Virus record (IMG/VR): IMGVR_UViG_3300046782_000105
Location: 1 to 41,650 of that record
Source of the DNA: a virus
Direction: 5' to 3' (one strand)
DNA length: 41,650 nucleotides
Below the pieces are notes generated by a model. The model worked only from the letters and a program-made list of their open reading frames with translations, made no database searches and was not told where the DNA came from. Every line of letters starts with the position of its first letter. The stretch's first letter is position 1. Both the position numbers and the translations under genes were made by a program. Of the stretch, positions 223-41,650 are shown in pieces.

Positions 223-1479
223 GTGAAAACCAAGATCAATAAAACGAGCGTCGATGCGCTCAGAGCCGGCAGCGGCAAAGACGACAGATTGTCGGACAGC
301 GAGATCGTCGGCTTCACCGCGAAGCGACTGCCTTCGGGCACGGTGATCTTCATCTATCGTTATCGCAACGAGAAGGGCGTCCGCCAACAGCAGTCACTCG
401 GCGTCTACGGCAAGGTGACGCCGGAGCAGGCGCGCATCGAGGCCATGAAGGCGCAAGGCAAGGTCGCCGGCGGCGCCGATATTGTCGAAGAGCGCAAGAC
501 CATCCGCGCCCGCGACGGCATGACCGTCAATGTGCTGCTCGATCGTTTCGCGGAAGGGCACCTCAAGAGCTTGGCTTCCGGCGAACACATCAAGAAATTC
601 TTCTTCGACAAACATGTGCGGCCCGCGATCGGCGACACCATCATCTACGATCTCAGGCGCGCCGACATCGTGGCGCTGCTCGATAAGATCGCCGCCAAGG
701 GCTCCGACACCACAGCCGACCGGACGCTGGCCTATGTTCGCAAGGCCTTCAACTGGCATGCCATCCGCGATGAAAAATTCACCCCGCCGCTGGTGCGCGG
801 CATGGCGCGCATCAAGCCGCTCGAGCGCGCCCGCGATCGCGTCCTCGATGACGACGAGATCGCCGACCTGTGGCAGGCGCTCGATGAGCTGGTCGAGGAG
901 AACAAGATCCATCCGCTGCACCGCGCCGCCGCCCACACGCTGATGTTCACCACCATGCGGCTGCGCCAGGTCACCGAGATGCGGCGCGCGGAAATCAAGG
1001 GCCATGATTGGCTGATCCCGCGCGAGCGCAACCGCAAGACCAAGGTCGCCCACCTCTGCCACCTCACCGATGCGGCGCTCGCCGCGATCGGCGAGGGCGA
1101 CGGCGAGCTGGTGTTCTCGATCGGGGGCGACAAGCCGCTGGCGCTCGCCAGCGTTGTCAAGGCCAAGGTCGATCGCAAGCTCGCCGAGATCAGGAAGGCC
1201 AAGAAGCACCACGCCATGCGGGCCTGGACCTGGCACGATCTGCGCCGCACTGGGCGCTCGCTGATGAGCGGCATGTCGGACCAGGGCGTCACGCCCGATC
1301 ACGCCGAGCGGGTCTTGGGCCACATCCTGCCAGGGCTGCGCCGCACCTACGACATCTACAACTACAAGAAGGAAAAGCAGCGGGCGCTCGAGTGCCTCAG
1401 CGCGCACATTGTCTCGATCACCCGCCCTCGTGGCGGCGGTAATGTGGTGCAGCTCAAGCGGCGGCGCCCGGCGGCTTAA
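223..1479 (+). CDS. int: Tyrosine-type site-specific integrase
   Basis: A 418-residue phage integrase that would recombine attP with a host attB. Residues 1-95 look like the DUF4102 arm-binding domain, about 105-195 the core-binding (SAM-like) domain, and about 207-395 the catalytic domain. Likely catalytic residues are R246 (in TTMRLRQV), K274, H338 and R341 (WHDLRRT), H367 (VLGH) and Y376 (RTYDIYNY). The Arg-box Glu common in this family is Gln249. The start is GTG at 223 with AGAGGA about eight bases upstream. Its TAA overlaps the stop codon of the convergent HTH gene. The neighbouring GGGGGCAC sites support an attP next to int. Confidence 0.96.
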   Translation: MKTKINKTSVDALRAGSGKDDRLSDSEIVGFTAKRLPSGTVIFIYRYRNEKGVRQQQSLGVYGKVTPEQARIEAMKAQGKVAGGADIVEERKTIRARDGMTVNVLLDRFAEGHLKSLASGEHIKKFFFDKHVRPAIGDTIIYDLRRADIVALLDKIAAKGSDTTADRTLAYVRKAFNWHAIRDEKFTPPLVRGMARIKPLERARDRVLDDDEIADLWQALDELVEENKIHPLHRAAAHTLMFTTMRLRQVTEMRRAEIKGHDWLIPRERNRKTKVAHLCHLTDAALAAIGEGDGELVFSIGGDKPLALASVVKAKVDRKLAEIRKAKKHHAMRAWTWHDLRRTGRSLMSGMSDQGVTPDHAERVLGHILPGLRRTYDIYNYKKEKQRALECLSAHIVSITRPRGGGNVVQLKRRRPAA

Positions 1480-9816: not shown

Positions 9817-11456
9817 TGGCAGGCTTTGCCGACAGTCTGCTCGACTATCTGCGCGGTGTGCAGGTGCCTGGTGCGAATTTCGGCACCACATCGCCGCAGG
9901 AATACGTCAACCAGGATCCGGTGACGCCGATGATTGCCGGCGCCAACCAGATGGCGAAAGGCGCGTTCGAACAATCCGAAAATCTCCGCACCGGCGGCGA
10001 CTACAACGCAGGTCCAGTCCTCAACGCGGCAGTTATGGGTGTCGCACCGTCGGTTGCCGGCGTTCCCGAGGGTGCGCTCGGCGTCATGGGCGGTCGGCTC
10101 GGCATGCCGGCTCGCGAGGAGATGCTGCTCGATCAATCGCAGTGGGCTCGTGAAGGCGAGGCTGCCGCGGTGCAGAAGCAGCAGAGCCAGCAGCTCGGCC
10201 AGGATTTCCTTCCGGATCCGGATCTACACGCCCAGGCCGAGGCGCTGCGCGGCAAGTGGACAAAGTTTAGCGATCAGTATCCCGACATCGGCCCGCCGGT
10301 GCTGATCGACAAGACCACTGGCCAGGAGATCAATTTCCGATCGCAGACCGCAGCTCAGAAGCGCGTCGATGCCGGCGATGCATACTGGTCGAAGCAGCTC
10401 ACACCGGAGGCAACAGAATTCCAGCGCGATCGAGCGGTCATCCAGCGCGACATGGACGTCAACGGCTACCAGCCGTTCTTCGATCCGGCGCAGCGAGGCC
10501 ACGTTGACCCCTCGAATTACCCGGCGCCGATCGACATGACGACCGCGCAAGGCGGTCGCGCTAATCCGATGAAGGAGGCAACACTCGAAAAGTGGCAGCA
10601 GACGTACGACACGCCGGAAGCTCGCGCTCGCATGGTCGAGGCCTACAACGCCGGCACACAGATCCCAGGCGCCAACGACTGGTATGCGATGAAGCAGCTC
10701 GAGGACAGCTACGTCGCACACCTGGGCCCCGAGGAAGGCCGCAAAGCTTTCAAGAGCGATTTTGCTGACAGCATGGCGGCGACAACAGGCGGCGCAGCGC
10801 CGACGCCGAATTACCTGATGTCGCACTACGCCAATTTCGAAACCGCCGCCGGCAGACGGCTGCCGGAAGCTTCCTACAAGATGCCGTTCCCGATCGGCGG
10901 TCGCTATGCCGGCACCAACATCGGCATGTATCAGCGCTGGGCCGACGAAGGCGCACCAGGCTTCGGCGTTGCCAATCCCAAGCGCGCGGATTTCTCCTCG
11001 GCCTTCACCGGCAATCCGAATGCGTTCACGACCGACGAGCAGATGTCGGGCATCGTCAAGCCAGGCATGACAGAGCCGACCTGGTACGGCCCGGCTGCAC
11101 AGGTTGGTCACTCGGTCGCAAGCGATCTCGGCGTCGTGCCGCGCGATGTGCAGGACGTCGCCTGGGCTGGCGAGAAAAAGCGCAAGTGGGACATCGAGCA
11201 GGCTGCAAAGCCGCCCGAGAAACGACAGCCCTTCGCCTACGAGGGCCCGATGATCTCGCATGTCAACGAGGCGATCGAGCGCACCTCGAGGCTCACAGGC
11301 CGATCGCCAGCAGAGGTCGAGCGACTGCGCGTTCTCAAGAAGGCTCCAATGTACGGCATTGCCGGCGGCGTTGCGGCTGATGCGCTCAGTGAGCTGCACG
11401 ATCGCGGCCTGATCAGCGACGAGCAATTCGGGAGACTGAACAATGGCCAAAGGTAA
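9816..11456 (+). CDS. Large hypothetical protein opening the late block, 546 aa
   Basis: Not recognised with certainty. The N-terminal 90 residues resemble a phage structural/ejection protein start ('SLLDYLRGVQVPGANF', Gly/Ala-rich). The middle (about 255-450) is a compact domain with 'ARMVEAYNAGTQIPGANDWY', 'NYLMSHYANFETAAGR', 'NPKRADFSSAFTGNPNAFTT' and 'KPGMTEPTWYGPA'. This recalls phage proteins of the DUF7178 type, but that is from memory and by eye. The C-terminus is helical. The ATG at 9816 overlaps the previous TGA (TGATG). Possibly an internal virion or modifying protein. Confidence 0.7.
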   Translation: MAGFADSLLDYLRGVQVPGANFGTTSPQEYVNQDPVTPMIAGANQMAKGAFEQSENLRTGGDYNAGPVLNAAVMGVAPSVAGVPEGALGVMGGRLGMPAREEMLLDQSQWAREGEAAAVQKQQSQQLGQDFLPDPDLHAQAEALRGKWTKFSDQYPDIGPPVLIDKTTGQEINFRSQTAAQKRVDAGDAYWSKQLTPEATEFQRDRAVIQRDMDVNGYQPFFDPAQRGHVDPSNYPAPIDMTTAQGGRANPMKEATLEKWQQTYDTPEARARMVEAYNAGTQIPGANDWYAMKQLEDSYVAHLGPEEGRKAFKSDFADSMAATTGGAAPTPNYLMSHYANFETAAGRRLPEASYKMPFPIGGRYAGTNIGMYQRWADEGAPGFGVANPKRADFSSAFTGNPNAFTTDEQMSGIVKPGMTEPTWYGPAAQVGHSVASDLGVVPRDVQDVAWAGEKKRKWDIEQAAKPPEKRQPFAYEGPMISHVNEAIERTSRLTGRSPAEVERLRVLKKAPMYGIAGGVAADALSELHDRGLISDEQFGRLNNGQR

Positions 11457-11793
11457 GGCGAAGGCGAAGGCGAAGGCAGTCGAGACGGCGCCCTCAGACG
11501 AGAAATGGCGCGCCGAGAGTGACGCGCGCACCCTGCGCGAGGCCGAGGAGATCAAGGGCGACAGGGGGCGCCTCGGCAAAGCCGCAGCTCACGCCAAGGA
11601 CCAGGTCGAGCAGAACGCCAAGGTCGCCGGCCTGCACAAGCGCGGAGTGATTTCCAACGCAGTGCTGAACCGCATCAAAGGTTTTACACAGAGCCAGGGC
11701 GCCGCAGGAGCTGCAGGCGCCGCCGGCGATGCAGGAGCTGCGGGCGCGTCTGTGGCTACGCCTGCGGCGGTGCCACCACCTGATGGAGCTTGA
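11443..11793 (+). CDS. Small Lys/Ala-rich phage protein, 116 aa
   Basis: An N-terminal Lys-Ala tandem (from a GCGAAG repeat at about 11455-11477) is followed by a charged helix, 'RTLREAEEIKGDRGRLG', a pattern I recognise from small conserved podophage proteins of unknown role. Then comes 'VAGLHKRGVISNAVLNRIKG' and a Gly-Ala-Ala repeat tail (about 84-105). The LHKRG-x-IS segment recurs in the protein encoded at 12014-12193. It overlaps the preceding gene by 14 bases. Confidence 0.7.
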   Translation: MAKGKAKAKAKAVETAPSDEKWRAESDARTLREAEEIKGDRGRLGKAAAHAKDQVEQNAKVAGLHKRGVISNAVLNRIKGFTQSQGAAGAAGAAGDAGAAGASVATPAAVPPPDGA

Positions 11794-11795
11794 CC

Positions 11796-11966
11796 ATGCC
11801 GATCGGTCTCATCTTCTGGGTCATCATGCTGCTGTGGATCATCGCGGTGTTCGGTCGTCGTTGGGAGCGAGCGCCACCATGGTTTGCACCTGCGAGCGAC
11901 ATCATCATCCTGATCCTGTTCTTTCTGCTCGGCTGGCATGATTTTGGTTTCATCGTCCATCCGTGA
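11796..11966 (+). CDS. Small two-helix membrane protein, 56 aa
   Basis: Reads MPIGLIFWVIMLLW... with hydrophobic segments at about 3-20 and 35-52 joined by a charged, Trp/Pro-containing loop (GRRWERAPPW). GGAG lies seven bases before the ATG and the gene starts two bases after the previous stop. Similar tiny membrane proteins occur in Hyphomicrobiales phages; the function is unknown. It could be a holin-like or host-envelope protein, but it is far from the lysis region. Confidence 0.75.
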   Translation: MPIGLIFWVIMLLWIIAVFGRRWERAPPWFAPASDIIILILFFLLGWHDFGFIVHP

Positions 11967-12013
11967 CTGACGAGCTGCTGCCAGTGCGCCTATGACGCGC
12001 AGGAGATCTTGAG

Positions 12014-12193
12014 ATGCCACTGACCAAATCAGCATCCAAGCCAGCGTTCTCCAAGAACGTGTCAGCCGAGGTGCATGCCGGCAAGCCAGTGAAGCAGGCA
12101 GTCGCGATCGCCTATTCGGTCAAGCGCAAAGCACAGGGGCTGCACAAGCGCGGCGCGATCTCAGACAAGCAAATGAAACGCATGAGGGGCTGA
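12014..12193 (+). CDS. DUF6496-like small basic protein, 59 aa
   Basis: 'SKPAFSKNVSAEVHAG' followed by 'KPVKQAVAIAYSVKR' matches the short DUF6496-type pattern (H/E-AGKPxKQAVAIA) common in phages. The C-terminus, 'GLHKRGAISDKQMKRMRG', shares its core with the protein at 11443-11793. AGGAG at 12001-12005 is eight bases before the ATG. Function unknown; basic charge (Lys/Arg over a quarter) suggests nucleic-acid contact. Confidence 0.75.
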   Translation: MPLTKSASKPAFSKNVSAEVHAGKPVKQAVAIAYSVKRKAQGLHKRGAISDKQMKRMRG

Positions 12194-12196
12194 ACC

Positions 12197-12820
12197 ATGA
12201 AAACACTCTTCGCAATGATTGCAATGATCGCACTGCTCGCGACGGGGGCCGCGAGAGCTGACGTTCTGCTTGACCCGCATTTGAGCGGCACCGGCGACAA
12301 CGTGATCGCCGACAGCGTCAGCACCAACTCTGCTGTCGGCCATCTCAACGGGATGCACATCGATGTCGTGGACTACACTGGCTTGGACACCGGCTTTACG
12401 GGTGCGGCCAGCGGCAATGACATCAAGATCGACAACACCGTTGGCATCATCATCGACGTCAAAGACCCGACCAACACCTTTGAGGTCGGCACCACGACGC
12501 AGGTGTTCTCGCTCAAGGGCACCGGCGATGTGCATCTGTCGGTGACGGCGACTGACGGTACCTTCACCTTCGATCTCGGCACGATCGATCCGAACGCGCA
12601 GTCCGGCTTCACGCTCACCGCGATCAACGGTGAGGTGATGACGACGCTGGCGCTGCTCGACGTTGGTGGCACGATCACTGATTTCGAACACAACCGCATC
12701 GACGTCGCGGTTTCTGCCGTTCCGCTTCCTGGAGCCGTCTGGCTGTTCGGTAGCGGTCTTATCGGTCTGACTGTTCTCAGCCGACGCAAAACTAAGGTTG
12801 CGACGCAAGCCGCAGTCTGA
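12197..12820 (+). CDS. Exported VPLPA-CTERM protein (first of pair)
   Basis: 207 residues. A Sec signal peptide (about 1-21, ending ARA) is followed by a Thr/Asp/Gly-rich, beta-type body, then a classical sorting tail: VPLPGAVWLFGSGLIGL starting at residue 175, a hydrophobic segment, and a basic end (SRRKTK). This tripartite tail is the VPLPA/PEP-CTERM signal handled by a host exosortase in Gram-negative bacteria. The gene sits in the late block, spaced four bases from its neighbour with GAGGGG upstream. It is probably a cargo (moron) gene whose product goes to the host surface; a virion role is less likely. Confidence 0.88.
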   Translation: MKTLFAMIAMIALLATGAARADVLLDPHLSGTGDNVIADSVSTNSAVGHLNGMHIDVVDYTGLDTGFTGAASGNDIKIDNTVGIIIDVKDPTNTFEVGTTTQVFSLKGTGDVHLSVTATDGTFTFDLGTIDPNAQSGFTLTAINGEVMTTLALLDVGGTITDFEHNRIDVAVSAVPLPGAVWLFGSGLIGLTVLSRRKTKVATQAAV

Positions 12821-12852
12821 GGCAACCCACTTTCTTTGTAAGGGAAGAGACC

Positions 12853-13404
12853 ATGAAGAAACTTCTACTTGCTGCCGTCGCCGTGCTGGGGATGTGCGTG
12901 TCGGGCAACGCGGCGGTCATCAATAGCCTTGGCCTCGATCCGACCTCGACCGAGGGCGCCTTCAACCACTCGCTCGGCACCCTCAACGGGGCCTTTGACG
13001 ACCAGTACACGTTCACGCTCGACCACGCGATGACGCTGACGATCACATCGGTGACCAACGTCTACGCGCAGCCATCCGACTTCATCACCAACTTCACTGG
13101 CTCGGTGGTCTTGGGCACACCGCCTCCAGGCACCCTCGGCAATGTGGTGGAGATCGGTCCTGTCATGGCAACAGCCTGTGTGCTGGTGCCCAACTGTCAG
13201 GGCTTTGCCGGCTCTGCCGTTCTCGGGCCCGGCAGCTACTTCCTCGACATCAGCGGCATCGCTAACGGCAGCTCGGGATATGGCGGCGATCTTGCCACCT
13301 TCTCGGCGGTGCCGCTGCCAGGTGCGGCCTGGCTGTTTGGAAGCGCCATGCTCGGCATGGCGATGCTGATGAAGCGTAAACCAAAGAGGTCGCCTGCAGC
13401 ATAG
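12853..13404 (+). CDS. Exported VPLPA-CTERM protein (second of pair)
   Basis: 183 residues. Signal peptide about 1-20 (ending GNA), a body with 'FDDQYTFTLDHAMTLTIT', the F-x-D-x-Y-x-F-type beta element frequent in PEP-CTERM proteins, and two Cys (CVLVPNC) that could pair. The tail starts at residue 153 with VPLPGAAWLFGSAMLGM and ends in basic KRKPKR. Its body does not resemble the preceding protein, so only the tails are alike. AGGGAAGAG precedes the ATG. No own promoter was recognised. Confidence 0.88.
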   Translation: MKKLLLAAVAVLGMCVSGNAAVINSLGLDPTSTEGAFNHSLGTLNGAFDDQYTFTLDHAMTLTITSVTNVYAQPSDFITNFTGSVVLGTPPPGTLGNVVEIGPVMATACVLVPNCQGFAGSAVLGPGSYFLDISGIANGSSGYGGDLATFSAVPLPGAAWLFGSAMLGMAMLMKRKPKRSPAA

Positions 13405-13429
13405 GCACCTCGCAACAATGGAGCAGATT

Positions 13430-13672
13430 ATGAAGAGCGCTCCCGGTGTGTCGAAATTCAAGGTGCGCTACGTTTTTCGCAGAGGAACACGCAAAGGCAA
13501 GGTGCGGACCTATTGGTACTACAAGGTCCGCATCTCGATCGACGGTCGCCAGCACTTCCTCGGCGATTTCAAGACCAGACGCGAGGCCGTGGCTGCCTAT
13601 GATGCCTACAAGGCCAAGCACGAGGCTCGTGCCATGAGCAACATCGATGCGAGCGAACGGCAAGCCGCGTGA
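13430..13672 (+). CDS. Stand-alone AP2-like DNA-binding protein
   Basis: 80 residues. 'YYKVRISIDGRQHFLGDF' plus 'KTRREAVAAYDAYKAKHEA' form an AP2/ERF-like fold: three strands followed by a helix with the Ala-Ala-Tyr-Asp motif. In phages this domain is usually the DNA-reading part of HNH homing endonucleases; no HNH motif is present here. The ATG at 13430 is preferred over 13418 because GGAG lies six bases ahead. The stop overlaps the terminase small subunit start (GTGA). Confidence 0.78.
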   Translation: MKSAPGVSKFKVRYVFRRGTRKGKVRTYWYYKVRISIDGRQHFLGDFKTRREAVAAYDAYKAKHEARAMSNIDASERQAA

Positions 13673-14286
13673 GTGTGCTTAAAAATACGCGGCACGAGCT
13701 TCTGGCGCAGGGATTGGCCGCGGGCAAAACCGCGGTCGATGCCCATGAGCTGGCCGGCTACAAGCGCGACGACAGCAATGCCTACAAGCTCGCCAACCGG
13801 CCAGGGATCCAGGCGCGCGTGAAGGAGATCTTGGGCGCCGCAGCGGCTGCCGTCGGCGTCACCGTCGAGAAGGTCGTCAAGGAACTGGCCAAGATCGGCT
13901 TCTCCGACATCCGCAAGGCGGTCGATTGGTCTGGCGCCCTGGTCGAGGAGCAAGACAACGACGAGGGCGGCGATGTCCTGGTGGTGCGCCACATCCACTC
14001 CAACCATGTTCGCCTGGTCAGCGCCAAGGATCTTGACGACGACACTGCCGCGGCGATCGCCGAGGTCAAGCAGAACAGGGAGGGCGTCACCATCAAGCTC
14101 TACGACAAGCGAGCTGCGCTGGTCGATCTCGGGCGCCACCTCGGCATGTTCGAAGAGAACGTCAATCTGAAGGTTGCCGATGGCATTCCAAAGCGCGCAA
14201 CGATCAGTTTCGGTCGAAAGTCTCCACCTACAAATGGACGACTTGCACCCGAGGCAATGGATAGCGTTTCTAAGTCTCGCCACTGA
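13669..14286 (+). CDS. Terminase small subunit
   Basis: 205 residues. The N-terminal 55 ('QGLAAGKTAVDAHELAGYKR', then 'AYKLANRPGIQARVKEIL') are the HTH of the Terminase_2 family, followed by a coiled-coil oligomerisation part (about 60-80) and 'KIGFSDIRKAVDW', typical of the family. It recognises the packaging site and presents DNA to the large subunit, whose gene overlaps its 3' end by 107 bases. The start is GTG at 13669. Confidence 0.88.
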   Translation: MSVLKNTRHELLAQGLAAGKTAVDAHELAGYKRDDSNAYKLANRPGIQARVKEILGAAAAAVGVTVEKVVKELAKIGFSDIRKAVDWSGALVEEQDNDEGGDVLVVRHIHSNHVRLVSAKDLDDDTAAAIAEVKQNREGVTIKLYDKRAALVDLGRHLGMFEENVNLKVADGIPKRATISFGRKSPPTNGRLAPEAMDSVSKSRH

Positions 14287-15697
14287 GATCCTGTACGGTG
14301 GCGCCGCCGGCGGCGGCAAATCGCACCTGATGCGCGCGGCGGCGATCTCCTGGTGCGCTGAAATTCCAGGCCTCCAGGTCTATTTTTTCCGGCGCCTGCT
14401 GCCCGATCTGATCAAGAACCACATGGAGGGCCCCAAGGGCTTTCGCGCCATGCTGGCGAGCTGGAGCAGCGCCGGCATCGTCACCATTGTCGAGGATGAG
14501 ATCCGCTTCTGGAACGGCTCGCGCATCTATCTGTGCCACTGCAAGGACGCCAAGGACGTCTACAAGTACCAGGGCGCTGAAATTCACGTTCTGCTCATCG
14601 ATGAGCTGACGCACTTTCTCGAACACATGTACCGTTTTCTCCGTAACCGTGTGCGAATGGTCGGTATCGAGCTGCCAGAAGAGTATGCGGGGCGCTTCCC
14701 CAGAGTTCTGTGCAGCGCAAACCCCGGCAACATCGGCCATCTCTGGGTCAAGACCTCCTTCGTCTCGCCGGCGCTGCCAAACACCATCCGCAAGATGCCG
14801 CCAGAGGAGGGCGGCATGAAGCGCCAGTTCATCCCCGCGAGGCTCGATGATAATCCGAGCATGCTGGCCGACGACCCTGGCTACGAGGCTCGGCTCGAGG
14901 GCCTCGGCTCCAAAGAACTCGTTGCCGCCATGCGCTTCGGCAACTGGGACGTCATTGAGGGCGCCTTCTTCGACTGCTGGCAGACGCACAAGCATGTCTT
15001 GGATCCGTTCGCTGTGCCGGAAGATTGGATCCGCTTTCGATCGGCTGACTGGGGCAGTTATCACCCCGCATCGATCGGCTGGTGGGCGATCGCCGCCGAT
15101 GAGCATCAGATCACGAGTGATGGCCGCAGGGTCACTATTCCGCGCGGCGCGCTTATCCGATACCGCGAATGGTACACGGCCAGCTCACCTAACATCGGGC
15201 TCAAGCTCACCGCCGAGCAGCTCGCCGACGGCATCATCGACAGAGAAGAGCAAGACCCCAAGCTCTCCTACGGCGTAGCCGATCCCTCGATGTTTGCCGA
15301 GGACGGTGGTCCCTCACACGCCGAGCGCCTCAACACGGCGCTGCTCCACGCCGGCCTGATCTCGTTTCGACCGGCAGACAACAAGCGCGTTCCCCAGCGC
15401 GGCGCCATGGGCGGATGGGATCAGATGCGCGCCAGGCTCATCGGCATCGCCGGCAGCCCGATGCTGTACTGCTTCTCGACCTGTCGCGACAGCATCCGCA
15501 CCATCCCCGTGCTGCAGCACGACCAGGCCAAGCCTGAAGATCTCGACAGCGATGGCGAGGATCACGCTGCTGACGAGTGGCGTTACGCCTGCATGTCGCG
15601 GCCCTGGCAGAAGGAAAAGGCGGTGCCAGAGCAACCCAAGGACGCCTACCGGGTACTGCACGAGGAAGACGTCTACGACAGTTTCAAGACCATTTAA
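14180..15697 (+). CDS. Terminase large subunit
   Basis: 505 residues, the packaging ATPase-nuclease. Walker A is GGAAGGGKS (40-48, Lys47) and Walker B HVLLIDEL (Asp141, Glu142). The C-terminal RNase H-like nuclease has acidic residues at Asp290 (RSADWGSYHP), Asp368 (YGVADPSMF) and Asp465 (DHAADEWRYA). The ATG at 14180 is chosen because GAAGG stands six bases upstream; a TTG six bases earlier is in frame. The long overlap with the small subunit suggests coupled translation. Confidence 0.95.
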   Translation: MAFQSAQRSVSVESLHLQMDDLHPRQWIAFLSLATEILYGGAAGGGKSHLMRAAAISWCAEIPGLQVYFFRRLLPDLIKNHMEGPKGFRAMLASWSSAGIVTIVEDEIRFWNGSRIYLCHCKDAKDVYKYQGAEIHVLLIDELTHFLEHMYRFLRNRVRMVGIELPEEYAGRFPRVLCSANPGNIGHLWVKTSFVSPALPNTIRKMPPEEGGMKRQFIPARLDDNPSMLADDPGYEARLEGLGSKELVAAMRFGNWDVIEGAFFDCWQTHKHVLDPFAVPEDWIRFRSADWGSYHPASIGWWAIAADEHQITSDGRRVTIPRGALIRYREWYTASSPNIGLKLTAEQLADGIIDREEQDPKLSYGVADPSMFAEDGGPSHAERLNTALLHAGLISFRPADNKRVPQRGAMGGWDQMRARLIGIAGSPMLYCFSTCRDSIRTIPVLQHDQAKPEDLDSDGEDHAADEWRYACMSRPWQKEKAVPEQPKDAYRVLHEEDVYDSFKTI

Positions 15698-17044: not shown

Positions 17045-19065
17045 TGGCGCAGAACGCGATCGCCGCGGTGATGACGTCGGACCCAGTTGGCCGCAATGCC
17101 ATCGACGTCTCGCGCGACGAAAACGACGACGGCGCGGGCTTTCTCTCGACGTCGGTAATGCGGCGCCAATACACCGACTACATCGGCAACAAGATCCTCG
17201 AGATCGAGGAGCAAAAACAGAGCCGGCACTACTATCACGGCGCGCACTGGACCGCGGAAGAGATCAGGATCCTCAAGAAGCGCCGGCAGCCGGTCGTCGT
17301 CTACAACCGGGTCAATCGCAAAGTCGATAGCATCATGGGCCTGGTCGAGAAGCTTCGCCAGGATCCCAAAGCATTTCCCCGCAAGCCCAACGATGACGAC
17401 GGCGCCGCAGTCGCAACGCAGGCCATCCGCACCGTTCTCGATCAGATCGATTGGCGAACGCTCGATCACGACGCCACCGAGCGCTGCGCGATCGAGGGCA
17501 TCGGCGGCATCGAGCTGAAGCTCGCCAACAGGGCCAATCCGGTTGGCAACGAGCCTGCGGATCCAGAGGTCACCGCCGACTACATCTTCGGCGAGGATTT
17601 CTACTACGATCCGCGCTCGCGCCGGCCCGATTTTACCGATGCGCGCTACATGGGCATTGCCAAATTCCTCGACATCGAGGCGGCGATCGAGCTGTTCCCC
17701 GAGAAGGAAGACGAGCTGCGCGCCGGCGTCGACCACGGCTTCGAAGTCACCACGCATTCCGACCAGGAGATCAAGTGGGTCTACACATCGGAGAAGCGCA
17801 TTCGGCTTTGCGAGCATTGGTACAAGCACAAGGGGCGCTGGTGCTGGTGCTTTTTCGTCGGCGACGTCAAGCTCGATGAAGGCGTCTCGCCTTTTCGGGA
17901 CGAGAACAGCGACACCATGTGCCGCTTCATCATGTTCAGCGCCGCCGTCGATCACGACGCCGACCGTTACGGCTTCCCGCGCAATCTCAAGGGCCCGCAG
18001 GACGAAATCAACATGCGCCGATCGAAGGCGCTGCACATCTCGAATTCGCGCCGCATTATTTCGGAGAAGGGCGCTGTCCAGGACGTCGAAAAGTCGCGCA
18101 ACGAGTGGGCTCGAGCCGACGGCTGGCTCGAGATCAACCCAGGCTTCTCCGACAAGATCAAGGTCGATGAAACGGCAGCGACCGATCTCGCAGCTCAGAT
18201 GCAGTTTCTCACCGAGGCCAAAAATGAAATCGATAGCTTTGCCAATGTTAACCCTGCGCTACTCGCTCAAGGTGATCCCTCCGAACATTCCGGTGTGGCA
18301 ATCGACCTCATGCAACGGGCTGGCCTGGCTGAACTATCCAAATTCCTCCTTGCACATCGCACCTGGCGGATGCGGGTATATCGGGCCATCTGGGGCATCG
18401 TGCAGCAATACTGGACCGCCGAGCGATGGCTGCGCGTCACCGACGACCAGAAGGTCGTCAATTTTATACAACTGAACGGCGTCGGCATCGATCGCAATCC
18501 GCAGAGCCCGAATTTCGGCAAGCCAGTGCTGGTCAATGCCGTCGGCGAGATCGACGTCGAGATCATCCTCGATGAAGGCCCCGATGTCGCGAGCGTCATG
18601 CAGGACGCCTACGAGATCATCAAGGGCGATCCGACCATCCCGGCGACCGTCAAGATCGAGGTGTCGCCGCTGCCGGCGCCGCAGAAGCAGCGCATCCTCG
18701 GCGTCCTGCAGCAGGCCGCGAAGAACCAGCCGCCGGACCCCAAGGTGCAGACCGAGCAGCTCAAGTCGCAGAACCAGGCGCAGCAGAACCAGGTCGAGCT
18801 GCAGAAGGCGAACATGCAGACCCAGGCCGAGATCTTCAACGCCAGGCAGGACGCCATGGCGCGCGAGCAGGACGCGCAGCTCGCCGCCAACAAGGCCGCA
18901 GCCGAGCGAGAGCATCTGCAGCTCGAGATGCAGTTCAAGCAGGCCGAACACCGCGATCGCATGGTCGAGCTGGCGATGAAATCACAGGCCAGAACCGCCG
19001 AACACCACCAAAAAATGCAGGCGATGTCGAAGCGGCCACAGCAAAAGGGCACCCAACATGCTTAA
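17044..19065 (+). CDS. Portal protein (P22-like)
   Basis: 673 residues, close to the usual length of P22-type portals. Landmarks: 'QSRHYYHGAHWTAEEIRILK' and 'RRQPVVVYNRVNRKVDSIMG' near the N-terminus, 'GEDFYYDPRSRRPDFTDARY', 'EHWYKHKGRWCWCFFVGD', 'GFPRNLKGPQDEINMRRSKA' and 'RVYRAIWGIVQQYWTAERWL'. The C-terminal 130 residues are a Gln/Ala-rich coiled coil, the barrel part of such portals. It forms the dodecameric DNA gate at the capsid vertex. No long-tail genes follow, consistent with a short tail. Confidence 0.92.
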   Translation: MAQNAIAAVMTSDPVGRNAIDVSRDENDDGAGFLSTSVMRRQYTDYIGNKILEIEEQKQSRHYYHGAHWTAEEIRILKKRRQPVVVYNRVNRKVDSIMGLVEKLRQDPKAFPRKPNDDDGAAVATQAIRTVLDQIDWRTLDHDATERCAIEGIGGIELKLANRANPVGNEPADPEVTADYIFGEDFYYDPRSRRPDFTDARYMGIAKFLDIEAAIELFPEKEDELRAGVDHGFEVTTHSDQEIKWVYTSEKRIRLCEHWYKHKGRWCWCFFVGDVKLDEGVSPFRDENSDTMCRFIMFSAAVDHDADRYGFPRNLKGPQDEINMRRSKALHISNSRRIISEKGAVQDVEKSRNEWARADGWLEINPGFSDKIKVDETAATDLAAQMQFLTEAKNEIDSFANVNPALLAQGDPSEHSGVAIDLMQRAGLAELSKFLLAHRTWRMRVYRAIWGIVQQYWTAERWLRVTDDQKVVNFIQLNGVGIDRNPQSPNFGKPVLVNAVGEIDVEIILDEGPDVASVMQDAYEIIKGDPTIPATVKIEVSPLPAPQKQRILGVLQQAAKNQPPDPKVQTEQLKSQNQAQQNQVELQKANMQTQAEIFNARQDAMAREQDAQLAANKAAAEREHLQLEMQFKQAEHRDRMVELAMKSQARTAEHHQKMQAMSKRPQQKGTQHA

Positions 19066-41505: not shown

Positions 41506-41650
41506 ACTTTATCTTGGATCCGATCCGGGCCCATTTGTTAACTTCTTAGAAAAATCTCGATAATTGCAAAAAGGCCCGGAAACACTGTCTAAAACGACTA
41601 TTATGCAGTATGACGCTGTGCTGTCGTTTTTTCTTGCGTTGGGGTCGTTT
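41506..41650. repeat. Terminal direct repeat, right copy
   Basis: Copy of bases 1-145 with a single difference at 41632 (T for G). If the molecule is circular this copy is the assembly overlap and the genome is about 41,505 bp. Confidence 0.95.

Follow-up and report, generated by a model that had tools for sequence, protein, structure and literature searches.

The window, by which we mean the whole stretch of DNA that was analyzed, is a phage genome of 41.6 kb with a direct terminal repeat (1-145 and 41506-41650; 126 bases exact, 145 bases with one mismatch) that joins its two ends and is adjoined by an integrase. This arrangement marks either a complete genome or a pair of att repeats. Besides the integrase, the genome encodes an excisionase (Xis), RecT, an exonuclease, a repressor-like gene, and a NusG-type antiterminator, along with virion and lysis functions that include a terminase, a portal, a major head protein, a spanin, and tail genes. 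With its tyrosine integrase, the phage is temperate. Two adjacent genes, here called P1 and P2, sit in a tight plus-strand run between a small gene that ends at 12193 and the small subunit of the terminase, which begins at 13669. The features that matter for what follows are these:

223..1479, + strand: tyrosine integrase (phrog_1, E 4.9e-39)
12014..12193, + strand: small upstream gene (phrog_2423), ending 3 bases before P1 and marking the phage gene run that holds P1 and P2
12197..12820, + strand: P1, a predicted secreted beta-sandwich protein of 207 aa with a VPLPA-CTERM-like tail (open reading frame, TIGR03370 and PF07589, AlphaFold, viral body family)
12197..12256, + strand: P1 N-terminal Sec-type signal, about residues 1-20 (sequence MKTLFAMIAMIALLATGAARA; modelled helix at 2-14, first strand at 22)
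12713..12817, + strand: P1 sorting tail, SAVPLPGAVWLFGSG plus a hydrophobic segment and RRKTK (model matches, motif codons)
12853..13404, + strand: P2, a predicted secreted beta-sandwich protein of 183 aa with an FxDxF-like body, a PPC-domain-like fold, and a matching tail (open reading frame, NF038126, fold)
13303..13401, + strand: P2 sorting tail, SAVPLPGAAWLFGSA plus a hydrophobic segment and KRKPKR (sequence, motif codons)
13669..14286, + strand: terminase small subunit, the core gene downstream of P2 (terminase large subunit from 14180)

P2, like P1, opens with an N-terminal hydrophobic signal; both were judged by inspection to be of the Sec type, with a K/R start, a hydrophobic core, and an AxA-like end. 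Both proteins close with a common motif, VPLPGA-[VA]-WLFGS, followed by a transmembrane helix and basic residues (P1 tail, SAVPLPGAVWLFGSGLIGLTVLSRRKTK; P2 tail, SAVPLPGAAWLFGSAMLGMAMLMKRKPKR). AlphaFold modelled each as a beta-sandwich body with a C-terminal helix (pLDDT of 86.6 for P1 and 87.2 for P2). Sequence, models, and coordinates all agree with the first-pass annotation, which had described two neighboring proteins with a Sec signal, a beta-rich body, and nearly identical tails. It had also called the bodies unrelated, and a profile of the P1 body indeed matched no body encoded by a neighboring gene, P2 included.

The same annotation took both tails for a known sorting signal, and both are of the bacterial sorting type; against the VPLPA-CTERM model, P1 scored around the cut-off and the tail of P2 well under it. 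TIGR03370, the VPLPA-CTERM model, scored P1 at 26.6 bits in a genome scan and 22.6 bits by hmmscan (cut-off 25.35), and the Pfam PEP-CTERM model (PF07589) scored it at 19.3 bits (cut-off 20.7). Because the P2 tail on its own reached 9.8 bits against TIGR03370, far under 25.35, we label P2 VPLPA-CTERM-like rather than a member. Its body is akin to a bacterial PEP-CTERM family, FxDxF (NF038126), which scored 33.4 bits, under the cut-off of 50, while aligning residues 13-170 of 183 to positions 8-161 of the 165 in the model. Furthermore, NF038126 matched 29/29 aligned members of the P2 family, and a P2 relative in phage L070 reached 40.7 bits against the same cut-off of 50. Across the 15 codons of the shared motif, P1 and P2 have 4 identical codons, 9 synonymous differences, and 2 residue changes, a ratio of synonymous to replacement differences which means that the motif has been kept by selection. 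A recent duplication of the tail within the window was ruled out, as the tail DNA is 67% identical and the differences are mostly synonymous.

Several other features were seen around the pair. A small AP2-like DNA-binding gene with HNH and integrase N-terminal likeness occupies 13418-13672, between P2 and the small terminase, and the neighboring small genes at 11443-11793 and 12014-12193 share the segment GLHKRG[VA]IS close to their C termini. In the virion region, plus-strand genes at 19058, 31471, 34831, and 35682 start with apparent Sec signal peptides; one of them is a PHROGs tail protein. No promoter-like or terminator-like site rose above chance on the plus strand around 11400-14300. Membership of P1 or P2 in a defence or anti-defence family was ruled out, since a PADLOC defence-family search returned no match.

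A scan of 2.9 million viral contigs recovered the P1 body in 76 contigs and the P2 body in 56. Many of these relatives adjoin phage genes, including large terminase, Erf, RecT, primase, integrase, DNA polymerase, helicase, and endolysin. Among roughly 85,000 bacterial genomes, the P1 body was represented by a single broken remnant in a Rhizobium MAG (L043, about 1253-1345), itself without an exosortase match. With 76 viral contigs set against this one remnant, P1 is a phage family. Our searches for a host were uninformative: a prophage search through 289 Alphaproteobacteria and 398 Pseudomonadota, with the body of P1 as the query, returned just the Rhizobium remnant, and the portal of the window found matches at only about 30% identity. 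The 50,697 isolate-phage records held zero relatives of P1 or P2.

Within the phages, P1 behaves as accessory cargo. Specifically, P1 was relocated and P2 was not found in the sister phages L003 and L005; in L003, P1 lies at a different site among the same core genes, and its DNA likeness to the P1 of the window is confined to the body, ending at the signal and at the tail. Comparable pairs of tailed genes recur in related phages, with tails that match within each phage. Other viral contigs (L015-L041, e.g., L028-L032 and L016-L019) have genes for secreted proteins that join a PLP tail to yet other bodies; one of these genes directly adjoins a P2 relative in L016-L019 and in L036. Eight phages (L088:19854-20336 and relatives, a cluster of 8) carry an acyl-CoA N-acyltransferase of the PHROGs class moron near P1 on the opposite strand.

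Both bodies were found with three classes of tail: PLP (VPLPA-CTERM-like), PEP (PEP-CTERM), and GAG (VPGPIxGAGLPG). On the P1 body, the PLP class is exemplified by VPLPGAVWLFGSG and PLPATLPLFGG, the PEP class by VPEPATWGMMLLGF and VPEASTWAMMLLGF, and the GAG class, which makes up 33/62 distinct P1 tails, by VPGPIVGAGLPGLL. Some relatives clear curated cut-offs outright, with the two tails of L007 scoring 29.1 and 31.3 bits against VPLPA-CTERM (cut-off 25.35) and those of L045 scoring 23.5 and 22.4 bits against PEP-CTERM (cut-off 16). Tail class changed 12 times on the tree of P1 bodies (minimum of 2 and shuffled mean of 25.3 for three classes) and about 9 times on that of P2 (minimum of 2), the latter count being approximate as one row, L120, was scored GAG when it is PLP.

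P1 often has a tailed neighbor whose body is unrelated to its own, either P2 or a member of families T1, T2, or T3. In dereplicated P1-anchored pairs, the neighbor carried the same tail class in 16/16 cases, a result that holds before any merging of classes. With P2-anchored pairs counted, the class was the same in 28/28 adjacent pairs with unrelated bodies, when 12.2 were expected (p ~1e-5, an optimistic value because some concordant pairs come from related phages). For this final count we merged the PLP subclasses W and LPLF, dropping them as separate classes because both mix inside single phages; with unmerged classes, 12/17 P2-anchored pairs were concordant, and of the five mismatches one is a false tail call (g26). 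For instance, P2 is PLP-tailed where P1 is PLP-tailed (the window, L100) and GAG-tailed where P1 is GAG-tailed (L057, L070, L099). The matching pattern itself is not in doubt. In addition, the tail of P2 in L057 and that of a T1 protein in L086 are 86% identical in DNA although the bodies are unrelated, which shows that protein families have exchanged tail DNA. Because classes match between neighbors and switch on bodies, the tail follows the phage, and presumably its host, rather than the body. On the simple reading, tails would be fitted to a factor that every gene of a given phage has to deal with, namely, a sorting enzyme of the host.

In bacteria, exosortases are the established partners of PLP and PEP tails (PMC1569441, PMC3237569). 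As the first-pass annotation had noted for the window, no phage gene resembles an exosortase: a search for PF09721 found none in the window or in 44 related virus records. Since all 45 lack one, the enzyme would have to be supplied by the host. The GAG tail, to which no existing model corresponds, is the main caution against labelling the whole family exosortase-sorted. GAG-tailed bacterial proteins occur in Rhizobiales, with 4-6 in each of three genomes (G836, G865, and G901), and these bacterial genomes, the three richest in GAG tails, had no match to PF09721. The same genomes encode secreted proteins (L174, L175, L184, and L188) that end in VPGPIAGAGLP, a hydrophobic stretch, and RRR, which represents a candidate undescribed sorting tail. 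An exosortase role for the GAG tail is unsupported in these three genomes, and exosortases may not read all of the tails that these bodies carry; the GAG tail may be read by a different enzyme or serve as an anchor alone.

The earlier proposal that phage proteins enter the exosortase pathway of the host therefore survives in part: the sorting tails, their matching within phages, and the lack of a phage enzyme speak for it, whereas no exosortase link emerged for the GAG class. Judged from sequence, C-terminal sorting of P1 and P2 by the host is well supported indirectly, and reading by a host enzyme would fit the tail data much better than chance. By analogy with known systems, an exosortase as the reader is supported indirectly for the tail class of the window in particular. 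A broader scenario, to which we would give somewhat less than even odds, is that phages share a pool of exported bodies and swap host-specific tail cassettes so that all match the current host, with the commonest tail, VPGPIxGAGLPG, belonging to an undescribed sorting system of bacteria that have no exosortase.

What might such proteins do? With a probability of roughly 0.58, we favor the reading that the phage encodes P1 and P2 as surface factors, which exploit a C-terminal sorting enzyme of the host and alter or cover the cell surface against competing phages. As inferred from the literature on PEP-CTERM and exosortases, the proteins would be exported by Sec, a putative host enzyme (an exosortase for the PLP class) would recognize the tail, and the tail helix would be removed as the beta-sandwich body passes to the cell surface or the exopolysaccharide layer. 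There, the bodies could alter or cover the surface so that fewer competing phages attach, in lysogens, during early infection, or both. Exclusion is the most likely putative function, proposed from placement and fold. The first-pass annotation had suggested lysogenic conversion or a receptor mask against superinfection. Masking is a candidate function. Lysogenic conversion is consistent with the integrase of the window and does not extend to a general rule: with the most sensitive search used, an integrase was detectable in 12/45 records, which means that these genes cannot in general exist to serve a lysogen. Several findings run against our reading: P1 and P2 of the window share a strand with virion genes, the P2 tail falls far under the TIGR03370 cut-off, the three bacterial genomes richest in GAG tails lack PF09721, and the fold matches are those of common beta-sandwiches.

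The main rival accepts surface display and assigns it to the matrix life of the host, with bodies that bind exopolysaccharide and alter aggregation, adhesion, or release without blocking phages. An association of PEP-CTERM proteins with exopolysaccharide and with the formation of flocs has been described (PMC1569441, PMC9012009). The nearest folds to the P1 model are carbohydrate-binding modules such as CBM29 (Z ~8), those to P2 are PPC and collagen-binding domains (Z 11.5), and PepA matched P2 at 30.9 bits and P1 weakly, mostly across the tail. Yet both folds are common beta-sandwiches, which makes the matches weak and generic evidence on function, and a search of PDB sequences with the P1 profile gave a single marginal local match and nothing else. 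Moreover, the many phages without a detectable integrase would gain little from the matrix of a lysogen. We consider this explanation a serious one that is nevertheless unlikely, and a surface role during infection, for example keeping off other phages, fits best.

It is less likely that the tails simply anchor the C terminus and so retain the proteins in the inner membrane, with no enzyme involved. All of the tails are a hydrophobic helix with basic residues, AlphaFold models them as a helix, and GAG tails are present in bacteria that lack PF09721. An anchor, however, has no need of a fixed motif of 13-15 residues under purifying selection, nor would it account for discrete classes that match between unrelated neighbors or for hits to curated sorting-signal models (L007, L045).

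We regard as more doubtful still that P1 and P2 belong to the virion or act in lysis, as proteins with an export signal and an anchor, whether spanin-like or tail-associated. In favor of this, the window genes lie a short way upstream of the terminase, on the same strand as the virion genes, and P1 is within three genes of an endolysin in 9/74 relatives. The window clade is an exception, as P1 and P2 run with virion genes there; elsewhere, P1 mostly runs opposite to them. Across relatives, P1 has the orientation of the DNA-metabolism genes (exonuclease, Erf, Sak4, helicase, and DNA polymerase) in about 71/79 cases, compared with 3/32 for endolysin, the virion cluster, and a late cluster that has no annotation (number 40) combined; P1 shares a strand with endolysin in 3/18 cases and with the annotated virion cluster in 0/8. 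These counts make P1 an early-strand gene in most relatives, which weakens a virion or lysis role, and a place in the lysis cassette was dropped given how rarely endolysin is close and that it is mostly on the other strand. Furthermore, P1 changes position between sister phages, and swapping of tails with unrelated neighbors is unexpected of core structural genes. Finally, it is highly improbable that host PEP-CTERM genes were caught by chance and are useless to the phage: the P2 body does resemble a bacterial family, but each family extends across dozens of phages and keeps its body conserved, P1 is all but confined to phages, the pairs and their matched tails turn up repeatedly, and L014, which comes from a different sample, shares 4.2 kb with the window at 100% identity.

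The surface-factor reading has counterparts in known systems. Like substrates of PEP-CTERM/exosortase, including the VPLPA-CTERM variant (TIGR03370), the phage proteins combine a Sec signal with a motif, a transmembrane helix, and a basic cluster, and place one tail on unrelated bodies. Here, however, the substrates belong to phage families and are encoded by phages that lack the enzyme, which a candidate host must provide. The resemblance to FxDxF PEP-CTERM covers most of the length of P2 and extends to all aligned phage members, whereas P2 of the window scores below the cut-off of that family and many phage members bear a GAG tail. To our knowledge, C-terminal surface sorting in Gram-negative bacteria is known almost solely through genome comparison. 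Phage morons that alter the host surface, such as lambda Bor and Lom and the lipoproteins of superinfection exclusion, use lipoprotein or outer-membrane-protein routes. P1 and P2 likewise are accessory phage genes for exported surface proteins, predicted to be dispensable for the virion, but unlike Bor and Lom, they have a C-terminal sorting tail. Bacterial body families with swapped sorting tails have been described, with GlyGly-CTERM, LPXTG, or PEP-CTERM on one body in different organisms (PMC3237569). In those families each tail goes with an enzyme that the organism itself encodes, whereas here the genes are those of phages and adjacent unrelated genes change in step. The founding papers (PMC1569441, PMC3237569) do not mention phage, and the part of the literature covered by our search held no report of phage-borne PEP-CTERM or VPLPA-CTERM tails, which leaves priority unproven.

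Taken together, the sequences suggest that viruses may routinely borrow the sorting machinery of their hosts to put proteins on the infected cell. If phages do exchange tails to fit their hosts, the class of the tail would be a host marker for uncultured phages, and the phage proteins would be small natural reporters of exosortase specificity. The GAG tail would point to a sorting enzyme that is still undiscovered. More generally, C-terminal sorting would provide phages with an extra route by which to remodel the surface of the cells that they infect.
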